In this document: positions 3,001 to 32,373 of the stretch, in pieces
Position numbering within the stretch: position 1 is the first letter of the stretch
Layout of the letters: each line of letters opens with the position of its first letter
Assembly: GCA_947179485.1 (NCBI GenBank)
Contig: OX359248.1
Location: forward strand, 30,513,378-30,577,377
Length of the DNA stretch: 64,000 nucleotides
Direction: 5' to 3'
Origin: Allacma fusca
Taxonomy: Eukaryota > Arthropoda > Collembola > Symphypleona > Sminthuridae
Notes under the pieces: generated by a model
What the model saw: only the letters and a program-made list of their open reading frames with translations
Told to the model about the DNA's origin: nothing
The model's database searches: none
Made by a program: the position numbers and the translations under genes

Positions 3001-4107
3001 CAATCAAATCAGTACACTGAGAAGCTCTCCTACACTTGACGCGTAAAGTTCCTCCTATCCATAATCTAAAAAGTATCCAAAAATCAAAATGTTAATGAAA
3101 ATACATTACCAAGGACGAAACCATGAAGGTGCCAGTAATAATACTAATTATGACAGTAAGGTAGGACGGAAGGACGCCGGACCAGAGTTTCTAACGAGTG
3201 CAGATAATATGGGCACTTATTAAATAGGATCATGATGCTACTTCTTGTTGTATACGCCACCGCTCTGGGCCTCATTTCTTATTGCAGGACACTGTTCTGA
3301 GCAACTGCAACCTGCAACTCCGTCTAGAGCACTTAATTTCCGGCACTGAAAAACTTATCGTATCTTACATCTTATCTAATCAAAGTGCCTCTCCTGGCAT
3401 CATTGAGACAGTAATATGTATGTACATGCAAGGACGACTTGCCTGTCCTAATAGAAAAAATGAAGTATATACATACAGAGCTACTCCCAATGGTTCCTAT
3501 ATACAGGGTGTATGACAATTTCTTAAAATATTAAGAATTTTCGAGACTGCGCACGCATTGGGTGTGATGGTATGCACAGCTTGATCGAAAACTTGGAACA
3601 ACTTAAGTTTACCTGTGAAACATCTATTATTATAAAAATTATAATACAACCTTTGTTTGAGGAGTAGATTAAAGTTCTGAAAGAATTTCTGATTGTGAGA
3701 GACATTATAGATATGCATTCCGAGATAAGATTCACCCATTGTAAACCAGCCTCACTTTGGTTCATAATTGAATCGAATATGAGTAAAATATCAATATTAA
3801 TCAAAAGGTATTAATATGTTGTGACTGTAATCAGAATTCCCGAATTTAGCTTTACAGAAAATAATCAAGTTTTCAGAGTGTAATATATTGAGTAACGGGC
3901 GGTAAATTGAGAACCTTGAAATCGACTAGGCGACCCTACAATAGTAAACGTTTGAGTACTTATATAAGTATGTGAGGAAAGCCTTACGACGTGGTACTAG
4001 TACTACCACTTGCAAATTTGTGGCCATATTTAGTTGCTACGTTGTACACATTAGGGTACAATAAACTTGAAAAGTACAAGTACTTACATTTGACATGCAG
4101 AGTATGT
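1..4107. other. Non-coding AT-rich DNA
   Basis: I see no gene that I can support here. Open frames reach about 120 codons (for example 2347-2718, +), but none shows a family motif or a convincing set of splice sites. A GA run lies at 709-728. Around 2940-3075 there is a loose repetition of 'AAAGCTCCT' and 'CTATCCRTAA' words that may be a decayed tandem repeat. No transposase or reverse-transcriptase signature was seen. Confidence 0.5.
709..728. repeat. (GA)10 microsatellite
   Basis: An uninterrupted GA run of about ten units, followed by a short A-rich stretch. Confidence 0.9.
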
Positions 4108-4190: not shown

Positions 4191-4302
4191 CACCACATGC
4201 AAGTAGTGCTGTAATTTGTTCTTAGTTTTGTGTGTGTTTCGAGCGTTTCACAAAACGAGTTTAAGTAGTTTGTTATTCTTTTGTTGCAGTTGGATTTTGC
4301 GG

Positions 4303-4695
4303 TTGTTTTGTTGTTGTTCTCTGTAATATTTGTTTTGTTATTGTTCTTTGTAATATTTGTTTTGTTGTTGTTCTTTGTAATATTTGTTTTGTTATTGTTC
4401 TTTGTAATATTTGTTTTGTTGTTGTTCTTTGTAATATTTGTTTTGTTGTTGTTCTTTGTAATATTTGTTTTGTTGTTGTTATCTGTACTATTTGTTTTGT
4501 TGTTGTTCTTTGTAATATTTGTTTTGTTGTTGTTCTCTGTACTATTTGTTTTGTTGTTGTTCTTTGTAATATTTGTTTTGTTGTTGTTCTCTGTACTATT
4601 TGTTTTGTTGTTGTTCTTTGTAATATTTGTTTTGTTGTTGTTCTTTGTAATATTTGTTTTGTTGTTGTTCTCTGTAATACTTGTTTTATAGTTGT
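4303..4695. repeat. 27-bp minisatellite, about 14.5 copies
   Basis: A T/G-rich unit of 27 bp is repeated about 14.5 times. Two unit types differ at TTCTTTGTAAT versus TTCTCTGTACT. In the middle they alternate, giving a 54-bp higher-order period. Because 27 is a multiple of three, both strands stay open: the minus strand reads as Asn/Lys/Thr repeats dense in N-x-T, and the plus strand as Leu/Val/Phe repeats. Neither frame has splice sites or non-repetitive coding sequence beside it, so I treat the frames as by-products of the repeat. Confidence 0.9.
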
Positions 4696-4729
4696 GATTG
4701 TGCGCTGTAGGATTAAGCAGAATTTCCAC

Positions 4730-5425
4730 TTAAACCTACTATCTGTAACTTGAACCTCAACTTCTTGAACGTTCAGAGGAAGCTGAGTCCTTAACTTGAA
4801 TTTAAATGTTCACTTTATTTGAGGTGGTCAATAAGCAAGCTAAACCAGCTCTGTAAACTTGATCATCAATTCGATCTCTCAAATAAATTTAAACTTCAGT
4901 TTGAACCTCAATATTAAATTAGACTTTTATCTAAAATTGAACCAAAGTCCAAACTCACACCCTTATGTCACATGAACTCAAAATTCAAATTGCACTTATA
5001 TGTATATTATATTAACAGTATTAACCTAAACCTTCGAACATAAACTTTAAATAGTATGTCATCTTGAATTTCTATCAGGACTTGCTCTAAACCTAAAGAA
5101 TTCAATTGAACATATATATAATCCTGATAGATACTAGATAAAACTGAAACCTGTAGGTACTTGAATATAATGTGATTAGACGTACAATACTTGAACTTTA
5201 ATTTGAGTTTAGATCCTAACTTGAATGCAAAACCAAACCTCAGTTTAGATCCGTTATTGAAACTAAACAGGGGTGGATTAATAAAATAATTTTTACCCTG
5301 GTCCCAAACCTCAAAATGAATTTGTGGTTTTCAGCTGGGACCCGTAAATCCACTCATGAATCTAAATTAAAATTCAACTCTATTCAAATTTCAACTTAGA
5401 TCCGAACATAAACTTCGATTCAAAC
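4730..5425. repeat. Degenerate AACTTGAAT-type repeat field
   Basis: The DNA is built from loosely repeated words such as AACTTGAA, AACCTCAA and TTAGATCCGAAC, spaced about 6-18 bp apart. It is the diverged left shoulder of the homogeneous 18-bp arrays that follow. No gene is seen. A 91-bp transposon-like insert interrupts it at 5268-5358. Confidence 0.6.
5268..5358. mobile_element. Short hAT-like terminal-inverted-repeat remnant
   Basis: The left end reads CAGGGGTGGATTA. The reverse complement of the right end reads CATGAGTGGATTTA. A second nested pair (GGTCCCA and TGGGACC) lies inside. The flanking octamers are AAACTAAA at 5260-5267 and AATCTAAA at 5359-5366, a 7 of 8 match that fits an 8-bp hAT target duplication. 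At 91 bp it has no coding capacity. The right terminus departs from the usual hAT YARNG end, and the flanks are themselves repetitive, so the boundary call is tentative. Confidence 0.4.
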
Positions 5426-5656
5426 TTGATCTTAGATCCGAACATAAACTTCGATTCGAACTTGAATTTCGATTCAAACTTGATCTTAGATCCGAACATA
5501 AACTTCGATTCGAACTTGAATTTCGATTCGAACTTGAATTTCGATTCGAACTTGAATTTCGATTCGAACTCGAATTTCGATTCGAACTCGAATTTCGATT
5601 CTAACTCGAATTTCGATTCTAACTCGAATTTCGATTTAAATTTAAACCTGAATTTC
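5426..5656. repeat. 18-bp array, GATTCGAACTTGAATTTC type
   Basis: Its left part contains a 54-bp block that includes TTAGATCCGAACATAAAC and is repeated about twice. The 18-bp unit GATTCGAACTTGAATTTC follows with a few point variants (AACTCGAAT). It merges directly into the perfect array on its right. The long frame across it is a consequence of the unit length. Confidence 0.8.
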
Positions 5657-6142
5657 CATTTAAACCTGAATTTCCATTTAAACCTGAATTTCCATTTAAA
5701 CCTGAATTTCCATTTAAACCTGAATTTCCATTTAAACCTGAATTTCCATTTAAACCTGAATTTCCATTTAAACCTGAATTTCCATTTAAACCTGAATTTC
5801 CATTTAAACCTGAATTTCCATTTAAACCTGAATTTCCATTTAAACCTGAATTTCCATTTAAACCTGAATTTCCATTTAAACCTGAATTTCCATTTAAACC
5901 TGAATTTCCATTTAAACCTGAATTTCCATTTAAACCTGAATTTCCATTTAAACCTGAATTTCCATTTAAACCTGAATTTCCATTTAAACCTGAATTTCCA
6001 TTTAAACCTGAATTTCCATTTAAACCTGAATTTCCATTTAAACCTGAATTTCCATTTAAACCTGAATTTCCATTTAAACCTGAATTTCCATTTAAACCTG
6101 AATTTCCATTTAAACCTGAATTTCCATTTAAACCTGAATTTC
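5657..6142. repeat. Perfect 18-bp array, 27 copies
   Basis: The unit CATTTAAACCTGAATTTC is repeated 27 times (486 bp) with no mismatch that I could see. The array lies between related but different 18-bp and 24-bp variants. Perfect identity across 27 units indicates very recent expansion or homogenisation. The long frames on both strands (Phe-His-Leu-Asn-Leu-Asn repeats and Asn-Gly-Asn-Ser-Gly-Leu repeats) are not credible proteins. Confidence 0.95.
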
Positions 6143-6305
6143 GATTCAAACCTGAATTTCGATTCAAATTTAAACCTGAATTTCGATTCAAATTTAAACC
6201 TGAATTTCGATTCAAATTTAAACCTGAATTTCGATTCAAATTTAATATTTCATTCAAATTTAAATTTTCATTCAAATTTAAACTGTCATTAAAATTTAAA
6301 CTATC
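6143..6305. repeat. 24-bp and variant repeat junction
   Basis: One 18-bp unit is followed by three identical 24-bp units (6161-6184, 6185-6208, 6209-6232). Each is the 18-bp unit with an extra AAATTT hexamer. Variable units then run to 6305. It links the two perfect arrays. Confidence 0.85.
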
Positions 6306-6485
6306 ATTCAAATTTAAACTTTCATTCAAATTTAAACTTTCATTCAAATTTAAACTTTCATTCAAATTTAAACTTTCATTCAAATTTAAACTTTCATTCA
6401 AATTTAAACTTTCATTCAAATTTAAACTTTCATTCAAATTTAAACTTTCATTCAAATTTAAACTTTCATTCAAATTTAAACTTTC
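6306..6485. repeat. Perfect 18-bp array, 10 copies
   Basis: The unit ATTCAAATTTAAACTTTC is repeated ten times without visible mismatch. It is a different variant from the 27-copy array, so it expanded separately. Confidence 0.95.
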
Positions 6486-6499
6486 ATTCAAACCTCGCC

Positions 6500-9400
6500 T
6501 AGATTTATATCCCAACTTGCAGCATCCTAGAGCCTTAGCCTATTATAGGGCCTAGAATCATGGCAGGCGCCCATGTTTGGTGGTGACTGCGTTACATCTA
6601 GGGTATTTCTATTCATTGGTTGGTATGCGGTTGGTGTAATTTATAAACTACACTTAATTATCGTTAAGAAATTCATTTTGTCCTTTCCGGCGAAAATTTA
6701 GGTCCGTTAGTCCAATAGTTCCTCTGGACGATTAAACTTCCGGCGGGTCCCATATCCGAAATACCTGGAGTAGATTTTCGTGACTAGCTCGACCAACAAC
6801 TGAGTACTGTAAAAGGTGTGGATTGGGCTCAAAATGACCGGACCAAATATCCATGAACTTTTGTGGTTCGTATTGTGGAGGAGAGGGAAGCCCACTGAGG
6901 GAAACCGTTTACCCCAGCTCATTGACGTTGGTCTGATCTGGCGGGGCAACCCTAGACTTACATCTAACCACAAATCACAGGACAGCTATGCCATATGAGC
7001 CCAAAAGCAGTACGAAGTACTCAAGTAGGTTTGCCAAATATGTTGATTAGGTGGTTATAATTTTATTCCCTTCAGAAAAAATGTATTTAATGCACATTAA
7101 GAACACTTTTTTTTACAAAAAAGTTGCATTTGCAGCAGTATAGGCTACTTTAGTATTGACGGGTAAGTCTTTATCTTATACCGATTCGGATGTTCAGTAT
7201 TCCCATATTTCAACCTGCGTTTACCGTGTTATGTTATTTATTATATGCAGGTCCCATCAATCTGTATTACTTATTTTATTCTCTACAATCCCATCATCCC
7301 GTCAAAAACGCTACCAGGTGTTGTGTAACTCCAGGCTGGTCCAATGGACTCATGATGCTACCAAGACGTAAATCTACATATGAATTCTCTAAATTTTGTT
7401 ATTATTCATAAACTCCAGTTTACATAGAGTCACCTGAAAGCATTAGCTTGTGAGGGAATACCGAGGTCTTCCCACTAGCAATATTACGAATATCAAAGGT
7501 AGGTGAGAATATTGAAGCTTGTAAGTGGCTGACGAGCCCTCGTCATTGGGAATTTAGTATCGTTGCTCCTCGAGATGCTCTCGTAAAGTCAACAACTTTA
7601 AGCATTCCAGTGGAATACTTATCTGCACAATGAAGTCTGACAAGATGTATGGAAACCGTCTGGAGAGAAACGTTAATTACTGGAAGAACATCCTCACCAC
7701 ATGGTTGGCAATGCCGTCGTGCGTGTGCCACCGAAGTCAGAAACTTACTGTTGGAGTAATGAGACCAGAGCCTGGAAGGACTTGGAGAGCCCAAGACGTG
7801 GGGAAAGTTATTGTGAGCATACAAACCCTACATATATATACATAAGTATGGAAGTGAGGGCGGAAGTAACTTTTATCTACCCATGATTGCTGCCTTTACA
7901 GCTCTGGTTCACCTTTAATTAACTAAATGTGTTGCTCGTTTATAATTCAGTCTTCATAGGAAATTTATACAGTCATTCTACCCGCCATCGTTTAATTTTC
8001 CTCTCGGAATCAGTTACGAGTCCAGGGTGGGCTTATGATGCTCAATGCTACCAATGATGATGATGAGTTTTAATAAACTTCTTCCATCCAGCATGAGCGA
8101 TGTGAGGGAGCATTGATATTAATTAACACCCTAAACGTCAGTAAGTAGGTTTCATACATCTGTTTAAATACGGCCTGCTGACTCCCAGGCTCGGTTTCCT
8201 CATAATGCTAATTTCACACGTAAAATGTAATTTTACCGTTTTCTAATATTTTAGCATTTAGACTTTATAGAAACTCTCAATAATATTTAGATCTGGCATG
8301 AACTTAGACACGCTTACATAAATACATACTAAATAGCGTGCTTTACAGTCTCCCCCTTAGGACTTCCAAAATATTTCAACTACTGGCTTTCATGTTCAAT
8401 GGGCTCTCATCAACGATTAAAAATTCATAATTAGACCATCAATCCACTCAAGTTTAGTGGCCCCTTTTGTACGGATCCAGTGAGCAACTAATTGCGCTTT
8501 GAATTTCCCAGTAATTAATCTTTTCACCCTAATTCAATCAAAGCTCTAATTTTTGATACTTCATTTCACGTATTAAATCATCAAAGGCACACTTAATGCT
8601 CCCTTTTATTGCCCCCTTTATATTTACACCCCTACCATATAAACCATAAGCTTTGTTTCGCTGGATTAAAATCCTTAAATCTTCAAGGCAAAATCGCCCA
8701 TGCCAAAAACCATTCATTGCCTAATGACCTGAAAAGGACGGAGAAAGCATTAAACTACAGACAAATTCCAAGAACTTACCACATTTATCCTCCTACCTTA
8801 AAATACACGTTGCTACTATTCCTTCCAAAAAAAAATGCCAACACTGCATTATTTATGTTGAGTTTGTAATTAAAATGTACTAGTAACAAAAATTAGCAAA
8901 ATAATATAATAATTGTTTCTACAATAGTTATTACAGGCACGCAGTGAGGCATCTTATGAAATAACGTATGTAAAAGGACCCTGTTCCACATTCAAGGTCA
9001 GTTCTTCCCACTTGCCATTACCCATTATTCAAAATTAACCTATTCCAGTGTTCCTAACTCAAGGCTAATATTTCCCCATTGTACACACTATCCCACCTAC
9101 ATGTTTTTTTCCACCTGTAAAAGCTTAATTTAATCCACAAATAATTCCAAGAACCCTGCAGCAGGCAGAATTTAATTACTACACAAAGTAATTACTAGTG
9201 TAGTTAATTATTTCCTATTATTAAAACAGTAATTAAGATGTAAATGTAATGGAATGTAACAGCTTTATTACATCAAATCATCACAGAGTGCATTAAAATA
9301 TCACGAGGAATTTGTAGTCCGTTAAATATGTACTGTCCCTAATAAATCTGTACATAAGGCCTGACATCAAATATCCATAATTACATCAGAAACATTCCCT

Positions 9401-10972: not shown

Positions 10973-12983
10973 ATGGCTCAGTACTTGCGGTCGTTGTCCA
11001 TCCGGATCCCGGCTGTTACGGCTTGCTTGTTGAATGGACCGGTATATTTGTCTGCACGGGAGTTTTCCCAGTTGGGATCCTTAAGTCCTCATAGTCACAC
11101 CTTCGTACCAGGATTCTACTTACCTTCTGTGAAGCCTAATCAGCATGAGGGTTTGGGAATCAGACCCGGTAATTCCCAACGAAGCCATTTACCACCTTTG
11201 CTTTCAGAGTCTGCCCCTCCGCCTATAGGGAATGGGAAGTTATATGCGGATTTACTTGTATGTCCTCAACCTAAACCTAATCAAAATGAGAAGAATGCGT
11301 CTGCCTTTCCTTCGGATAAAAGTTGCAAAAATCCGGATGGGAAACCAACCCCTGATCAGCTAAATAGGGTGTACCTTGCGTTGCAGGAAGAGGTATTGTA
11401 TGATTTTGGAGTGATTGAAGTTAATTAAGTTGGATTTGTAATGTCGGTTTGTGAAAGTTGAACCTTTGGACGTTTGTTTCTAGATACCAGAAACTTTTTC
11501 ACGAGCTCCAGATTCATCTTTACTCACGGAGGATGTTGTACTGGTAGACAATATTCGAGGCAAAGTTTTTAAGTAAGTTTTGGATGCAGTTAGAGGTTGA
11601 GGAATGGTTATATTGTTTTGATAGGCATGTATCAAAAGGATGAGCAACTACATTAACCTGACTGATGTTTTTAGTTGTGAATGAAACTGAATTCATTGGT
11701 GTATATTGGGTGCGGATATTAATCATTATCAATGATTTTAGTCAGGACACTTGTAATTCGGAGATCCGAGAGGTCAAAGGTCACCGATGTAATGTATTGC
11801 ACGGATACTAGCACTCTGCACCACTTACTTGGGATGGTTTTATGGATTAAGTCAGTGTATACATATACATTAAGAGTATGAAAAACAAATGCTGTGGAAA
11901 GGATGTAATGTGGGAATAATAAATACTGAGGTTAATAAAATTGATTAGCAAATAACGGTGGTAATCTATATTTTCAGTTTTCTAACCTAACCTAAAATCG
12001 ACGTAATGTGACTAACATAATTATGTATGAATACTCCATTCACCAAGAGGGAGTATAAACAAAAGTACCGTGCACACGCAAGGTGCTAATCTACATTATA
12101 CAGGTGACCTTTGACCTATGGTATCTCCGAATTACGTGATTCCTGAACATCATTGTTAGACGATCGACACACTGAATTTAACCAATGCAAGAGGTTTCAA
12201 GAAAAACCAAAACTTGCTGCTAAAGTCAAGTTATGCCATATATTTTGGTCCTAATTTTGTCTCGTTAACTTTTAGGGGCCTGTCAGCATACCTTTCGCAG
12301 TTCTACCTTTTAAGATTTGTCGGTCATTTGAAGTATAGCAGCGTCACCGCAGAAATAGTCAGTATGAGCCAAGACCTAAAAGATGGCAGGGTGGTTGTAC
12401 AATGGCGAATAAAAGGAGTCCTAGGTTTCCGAGTGAGTTACTTAGGTTTAATATTTGGTAACAAGCAAAGTATTAGTGGCCGATTAAGTATAAATGCTTT
12501 TAGTATAATGGCTGTATTCACTAATTGTATCATACGGCTTTATGAATTCTAGCAGTTGTAATGTTGTTGTCGTCGTTCCTGTTTTGCAGGTTTTCCTAAA
12601 ATTTTGGCAGATCAGATTTTGGGATTGGAAAAGTGCCCTCAACCAGAAAGAAACTTGGCATGATGGTATTTCCTATTATGACGTTTCAGGAATTGATGGT
12701 AAAATATACAAGCATACTGTGGATAGGGTGAGTTGAATTTTTCGAATAATTAAATTATGCTCATTATCTTTCGGTAATCCCATATGTATTTCCAATTAAA
12801 GTCATATAGTATAAAGTGTAACTTTTGTTGAAAATTGAATAGGTAATTAAAGATCGTCTCGAGGAGGAACTACACGATAAGAAGTTACGATTATTAGAAA
12901 AACTGAAACTCGCAGGTGCTTCTGGTGCATTCGTCAGTCCTTTAATTATTGTAGGTACCTTAGACTGCATAGCCCCGACGTAG
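10973..12983 (+). CDS. C6orf136-like mitochondrial protein (DUF2358 family), five exons
   Basis: The coding exons are 10973-11392, 11484-11572, 12276-12432, 12590-12727 and 12843-12983. They give 314 residues, against 315 remembered for human C6orf136. All junctions are GT-AG and keep frame; only the first donor (GAG|GTATTG) is weak. The ATG at 10973 is chosen because an in-frame TGA lies at 10949. Residues 1-31 carry Arg and no acidic residue, fitting a mitochondrial presequence. Residues 32-120 look disordered and Pro-rich. The DUF2358 part runs from about 124 to 275. It shows LNRVYLALQEE joined to IPETF, then DVVLVDNIRGKV, a hydrophobic helix, VVVQWRIKGV (like the human RWRLVGL stretch), WHDGISYYDVSG and KIYKHTVDRV. 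A basic and acidic helix (KDRLEEELHDKKLRLLEKLK) leads to a hydrophobic tail. The function of the family is unknown; it has an NTF2-like flavour. An alternative end through the GT at 12954 cannot be excluded. No AATAAA was found downstream. Confidence 0.85.
11771..11783 (+). promoter_or_regulatory. Perfect DR1 nuclear-receptor half-site pair (left)
   Basis: AGGTCAAAGGTCA is two AGGTCA half-sites separated by one base. This is the consensus bound by HNF4, RXR/Ultraspiracle and COUP-TF/Seven-up type receptors. It lies inside the left terminal repeat of the intronic element. Occupancy is inferred, not shown. Confidence 0.6.
12105..12117 (-). promoter_or_regulatory. Perfect DR1 nuclear-receptor half-site pair (right)
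   Basis: TGACCTTTGACCT is the same DR1 sequence on the minus strand, inside the right terminal repeat of the intronic element and 321 bp from the left copy. Having the site conserved in both arms, while neighbouring bases differ, makes simple chance less likely. Confidence 0.6.
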
Positions 12984-30934: not shown

Positions 30935-32108
30935 TCCATAGAAGAGGGAGTGTGTTTCGGAAACAATGTTACTATTTGCAAGTCCAAGACACTACACGGA
31001 AGGAAGAGAGGGATGAGAGTGGAAGAGCGAGGAGGGAAAAAAATGAAAGGATTTTCTTCCATCTAATATCCCTCCATGGAGTTTTACATTGTGCAAGCTT
31101 TTACAATACCTCAGAGCATTGTAATGCATCCAACAAGGGCAAATAAAAGGTTCACAAGGTAACATTACTTTAGAATGCATTTCCCTCCTGTAAACTATGG
31201 ATAGGTATAAAATTGGACCTTAATCCCATTCCAGGAGGAGCTCCTCCCTATATAAATATCATATATCAAGATTATTATCCTAGGGAAAGGGAGCTACACG
31301 AGTGGAGGCGTCGTATCATTTCTTTAATTTAACGCCTGATTACAAATTGTCCTGAATAAAATTACTATTCTAATTCTAATTCCTCCCGGAACATACATAC
31401 GTCCATTCATTGGATCCACATCGAGAGGAACAAGGAATTTGAGAGAACTCCAGTGATTTCAACCTGTGATCAAGACATAGGGAACCACTCTTTGGGCTAT
31501 GGGAGAGATGTTGGGGAACAATTGGAACATATTGCTCAGTCCGACACACATTTAAGGTACATTAGGTACATATTTTCTAAGAGCTTCCAGGCATGGTGTC
31601 TCTGCCGTACGTACATATATGCCTGTGGATATATCTCTAAAGGGTTACATGGATTCTACAGGTACATAAGTATAGGGCAGACCCTCTGTCTGGGTAGGAG
31701 TCAAAGGGAAGAAAAGTCCCGGGTGCTACGTTTCTTGATGGAATTTCCTCTCTAATAAATTGAGATCAAAGGAGTTTCCTGTCTCCAATAAATATGAGAC
31801 CTTTCTACTCGCTCAAGTGAAGAGAGACACTAAACTCCTTTTCGTTTACATGCCATTGCACCTCCTTCCTGTAGTCTCATCTGTAGAATTGAATGTGGAC
31901 CTTCATAGGCTCCATATGCTCAAGTATAGTAGGAACCATCCACTCTGGATATATGCAGGGTGATGGTAATATGCTTTTGGACGTGTTAACTTTTTTAATT
32001 ATCTTACCGCACGCTACCCTTGCTTACTGCCTTTCAATGACTTAATTTCAAATCCTTTCTACTTCAAGGTCCAAGCTGTAGATACATATCCGAACTCTGG
32101 GTACATGC

Positions 32109-32373
32109 CTTAGCACTAGGTACATATCTTAGCACTAGGTACATGTCTTAGCACTAGGTACATATCTTAGCACTAGGTACATGTCTTAGCACTAGGTACA
32201 TATCTTAGCACTAGGTACATGTCTTAGCACTAGGTACATATCTTAGCACTAGGTACATATCTTAACCCTACGTACATATCGTAACCCTAGGTACATATCG
32301 TAACCCTACGTACATATCGTAACCCTAGGTACATATCCAACTGTAAGTACCTAACCCAACTGTAGATACATAT
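32109..32373. repeat. 19-bp tandem array, about 14 copies
   Basis: The left half is built from CTTAGCACTAGGTACATAT. Units 1-6 alternate ACATAT and ACATGT, giving a 38-bp higher-order period. The right half changes to TAACCCTASGTACATATCG units that alternate G and C at one position. Two or three diverged units lie at each edge (from about 32,070). No gene is seen. Confidence 0.92.

Follow-up and report, generated by a model that had tools for sequence, protein, structure and literature searches.

An inverted pair of exact DR1 sites in a DUF2358 intron is very probably inherited from an old, decayed MITE-like element

The window (the whole stretch of 64,000 nucleotides of DNA that was analysed) contains, within an intron of a DUF2358 gene, an inverted repeat whose two arms each carry the DR1 sequence AGGTCAAAGGTCA. 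The intron is 703 nt long as read from the sequence, and the peptide obtained by joining its flanking exons matches PF10184 (DUF2358; E 7.1e-14). The human relative, C6orf136, has a mitochondrial location. The features at the locus are as follows.

11573-12275, + strand: host intron of the DUF2358 gene (GT/AG and reading frames, boundaries placed by eye)
About 11638-11644 to 12237, no strand assigned: whole element (arm alignments of relatives plus terminus fit)
11638-11796, + strand: left terminal inverted repeat arm (alignment with relatives)
11753-11765, + strand: adjacent block GTAATTCGGAGAT (13 nt), the same in both arms (arm comparison)
11771-11783, + strand: left DR1, AGGTCAAAGGTCA (exact 13-mer match)
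12092-12237, - strand: right terminal inverted repeat arm (alignment with relatives)
12105-12117, - strand: right DR1, AGGTCAAAGGTCA (exact 13-mer match)
12123-12135, - strand: adjacent block GTAATTCGGAGAT of the right arm (arm comparison)

The exact 13-mer occurs twice in the 64 kb, against 0.0017 occurrences expected from base composition, and with up to two mismatches allowed these were still the only two matches (1.92 expected). The inner arms (11742-11796 and 12092-12146) are identical at 45 of 55 positions without gaps, and the fold of 11716-12170 has a z of -6.07 relative to 100 shuffles. The two exact, oppositely oriented sites within an inverted repeat that the earlier note had described were therefore confirmed at 11771-11783 (+) and 12105-12117 (-). 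The note had further held that the arms differ elsewhere while DR1 is identical: the difference it cited (ATCCGAG against ATACCAT) is real and DR1 is indeed identical, yet it is not the sole identical block, as GTAATTCGGAGAT is equally intact. With the 10 arm mismatches scattered at random, a clean DR1 is obtained with P 0.05, a run of 15 anywhere with P 0.31 and two runs of at least 13 with P 0.04.

The element is larger than 11756-12132, the interval that had been assigned to it. Among 11 aligned arms the inverted repeat extends ~100 nt outward past this interval on both sides, in agreement with a larger set, and the arms of relatives reach ~11638-11644 and 12237. The left end was placed at 11638 by eye and at 11644 by fit of the consensus end, and the right end at 12237, for a length of ~600 nt; the right arm was also matched by an outer-arm profile at 12237-12140 (E 8.1e-9). 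The terminal inverted repeats are ~150 nt long and start with 5'-GG, with DR1 located 120-135 nt inward of each element end rather than at the tip. A TA target duplication at 11754-11755 and 12133-12134 was ruled out, because the arms of relatives run through those positions. The element is short and non-coding, as MITEs are, with no stop-to-stop frame of 100 aa or more inside it; a 130-aa frame (12160-12552) shares 78 nt with the right end of the element and contains the next DUF2358 exon.

The window's own genome (392.7 Mb in 91 contigs) was searched for relatives. Searched directly, the window copy retrieved five diverged relatives, with 68-81% identity in the parts that matched. With a 142-nt arm consensus as query, at least 41 genome matches were obtained, a lower bound since 40 of 62 candidates were scored; two of these were the arms of the window copy itself (91 and 86% identical) and the others were 73-89% identical over the matched parts. 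From this search, 35 newly met places were retrieved. Furthermore, a profile built from 61 arms produced 68 arm matches in 42 sequences, and 21 facing arm pairs are spaced 361-859 nt apart. One relative (L129), used as query, retrieved only itself and the window copy. A sample of 200 kb (20 pieces of 10 kb from three contigs) contained one copy (L149; E 1.7e-19) and no exact DR1; extrapolation from this sample puts the genome copy number, with very wide error, at about two thousand by order of magnitude. A second, older arm relic lies elsewhere in the window at 3595-3689 (+; outer-arm profile E 8.5e-5, with no match up to E 1 in reversed sequences), and no DR1 was found in the sequence that follows it.

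These relatives are spread over several contigs at unlinked positions, and many of them have arms of either orientation, so that both terminal inverted repeats and multiple dispersed copies, as in MITEs, were found. The proposal that the intronic repeat is a mobile element is borne out by the terminal inverted repeats of its dispersed relatives, and the suggestion that it is multi-copy by the numbers above. The arm-set consensus includes DR1; the motif thus belongs to the ancestral terminal repeat and was dispersed with the element, as the earlier note had supposed. Five places (L171, L172, L185, L186 and L188) have in common a variant block, CCGAGATATGAGAGGTCAAAGG, in their arms, a pattern suggestive of related subfamilies that share their inner repeat block.

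The autonomous partner in the Merlin superfamily of DNA transposons carries an IS1595-type DDE transposase (PF12762). The arms found here end in 5'-GG followed by roughly ..AA.TTTAGTTTACTAG in the arm consensus, the GG being absent from some decayed arms. For 20 end pairs (20 of 21 scored; L166 was left out, one flank being cut), the match between flanking stretches of 8-9 bases was 0.586, as against 0.504 for shuffled pairs (P 0.0005); of the seven displaced controls, one (offset 25) reached 0.576. Because this control is nearly as high, an 8-9-bp target duplication is regarded as suggestive. Three pairs reach 7/8 (L169, L180 and L191), of which only L169 is clean, since L180 has a GGTCC-rich stretch and L191 an A-run. 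At the window copy the flank match is 0.5, about chance, and no target duplication is visible. Published marks of Merlin elements are GG ends, inverted repeats 24-462 bp long and target duplications of 8-9 bp (PMC8101967); the present element resembles them in its 5'-GG ends and in a repeat length within this range, the duplication being suggestive only, and differs in being non-coding, in being known from non-autonomous copies and in lacking a visible duplication at the window copy. From the GG ends and the suggestive 8-9-bp duplication, the family is probably Merlin-like.

The earlier note had raised the possibility that DR1 is kept more strictly than the rest of the element. A first comparison set comprised 11 arms from the five relatives, the window copy and the copy of the 200-kb sample; in its nine non-window arms DR1 is exact in none, column conservation averages 0.632 over DR1 and 0.713 over the remaining repeat, and of 95 13-column windows 90 score at least as high as DR1. 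Arms retrieved by the DR1-containing consensus (41, including the window's two) agree with the consensus at 0.869 in DR1, at 0.849 in the adjacent block and at 0.700 in the inner block, with DR1 exact in 13 of 41 (11 of 39 without the window's two). This good retention probably reflects ascertainment, because the query contained DR1.

Partner arms, detected by a profile restricted to the outer repeat (though trained on these same arms; 65 of 67 outer-profile matches scored), were therefore scored separately. Across these 24 arms, consensus identity was 0.718 for DR1, 0.711 for the adjacent block, 0.645 for the inner block and 0.597 for the outer hexamer; DR1 was exact in none, within one mismatch in two, and CAAAG was kept in seven. 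The set is not fully DR1-independent: L133(+) and part of L129(+) fall within regions that the window query had matched, L129(+) was also matched by the arm consensus, and L149 was found with a DR1-including profile, while L161 is unaligned. Without these four (20 arms, sums by hand), DR1 stands at 194/260 (0.746; none exact), the adjacent block at 219/300 (0.730) and the inner block at 245/380 (0.645). Two further partner arms, L160 and L163, may derive from neighbouring copies. Stricter retention was thus not supported: DR1 is retained better than the inner block and no better than the adjacent block, and on these alignments the comparison shows it decaying at the adjacent block's rate. Judged by consensus identity, DR1 and the adjacent block both somewhat outscore the flanking bases in the partner arms, which could reflect constraint on the two blocks or greater uncertainty of the consensus beyond them.

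The element in the window is thus very probably an old, decayed, non-autonomous MITE-like DNA transposon, of which AGGTCAAAGGTCA is an inherited inner piece of the terminal repeat beside TTTCGGAGATA. A Merlin-like MITE with long terminal inverted repeats would have inserted into the DUF2358 intron and then decayed. DR1 and the neighbouring TTTCGGAGATA block may together have formed a sub-terminal transposase binding site; the match of the repeat block to the DR1 consensus would be a coincidence, and the intact pair in the window would owe itself to luck and to the attention of the earlier reader. The arm comparisons do not show selective retention or receptor use, and from sequence by itself no DR1 function is apparent.

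A different account would have DR1 serve the transposon: bound by a receptor or by a zinc-finger domain of receptor-like type, it would aid movement or expression in certain tissues, and would thus have been preserved for as long as the family was active. DR1 and TTTCGGAGATA are among the best-kept stretches of the 61-arm alignment, and both exceed the inner block in the partner arms, which speaks for this account. However, the 61-arm set was mostly retrieved by a query containing DR1, the outer stretch AATCTGAAAGAATTTT is about equally kept in it, DR1 does not surpass the adjacent block in the partner arms, and no autonomous copy is present among those found. We consider this account unlikely.

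Alternatively, the window copy may have been co-opted, its DR1 pair being under selection as a putative intronic enhancer for HNF4/USP/SVP-type receptors while the family decays. Of the 19 loci that have arms of both orientations, the window's alone has two exact DR1s, and all 22 scored DR1 positions are kept in it, versus 122 of 162 positions (~75%) agreeing with the consensus elsewhere in its arms (P ~0.002 by our own arithmetic, uncorrected for how the copy was found). Yet the copy was chosen for having both sites, and one such pair is unsurprising among many copies; moreover, the two arms also agree throughout the adjacent block, and preservation is accordingly not confined to DR1. Because the copy was noticed for its two intact sites, such local selection seems very unlikely, and the more specific proposal of a local exaptation, in which an HNF4- or USP-class receptor would use the retained inverted DR1 pair in the DUF2358 intron, is to be regarded as highly improbable. 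An origin of the inverted repeat as a palindrome arisen by chance or made locally has virtually no probability left, being refuted by the many two-armed copies at unlinked places on several contigs.

Repeats carrying receptor sites are already known: HNF4alpha binding to Alu repeats has been shown on arrays (PMC3252374), and Alu repeats are reported to carry DR2 retinoic-acid elements (PMC1785376). Both cases concern a repeat family that disperses AGGTCA direct repeats through a genome; Alu, however, is a human/primate retroelement with array-shown HNF4alpha binding, whereas the family here is a DNA transposon whose exact DR1 is known from sequence. A second case is honghaier, inserted at eloF in Drosophila prolongata (PMC12044895). 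It is likewise a small repeat with predicted transcription-factor sites at a metabolic gene, but it was tested by reporter, is without terminal inverted repeats and has sites for dsx and bab1 (PMC12044895). In the partly covered literature on receptor sites and MITEs, no report of a DR1-bearing MITE was found; the family may nevertheless already be catalogued in a repeat database. The locus offers a worked example in which a perfect consensus site within a repeat is explicable by inheritance from that repeat, and the family supplies numerous natural DR1-block variants usable for receptor-binding tests.

In public collections, the 15-mer AGGTCAAAGGTCACC matched 69 IMG/VR stretches and a looser arm pattern 51, numbers that are probably about those of chance; stricter arm patterns gave no match. 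The best of the 15-mer places, L041 and L045 (of identical sequence; arm score 25), were not counted as relatives, because a few of 2000 random draws reach 25 (top five 30, 25, 25, 25 and 24). Among the 51 looser-pattern stretches the best arm score was 20. No Rfam family and no tRNA was detected in the window.

Tandem arrays are present in the window at 4195-4761 (27-nt unit), 5304-6555 (18-nt unit) and 32036-32356 (19-nt unit), and in those with 27- and 18-nt units both strands carry long open frames, which look repeat-derived rather than genic. At the end of contig C12 (L157), 1.5 kb consist largely of a 12-nt tandem array with a unit like CTTGTAGTTAAG, and no long TTAGG-type array was found in the four 1.5-kb contig ends examined. 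As six contigs (C1, C5, C8, C9, C10 and C12) together hold ~386 of the 393 Mb, the genome (G000) appears to have six large chromosomes.
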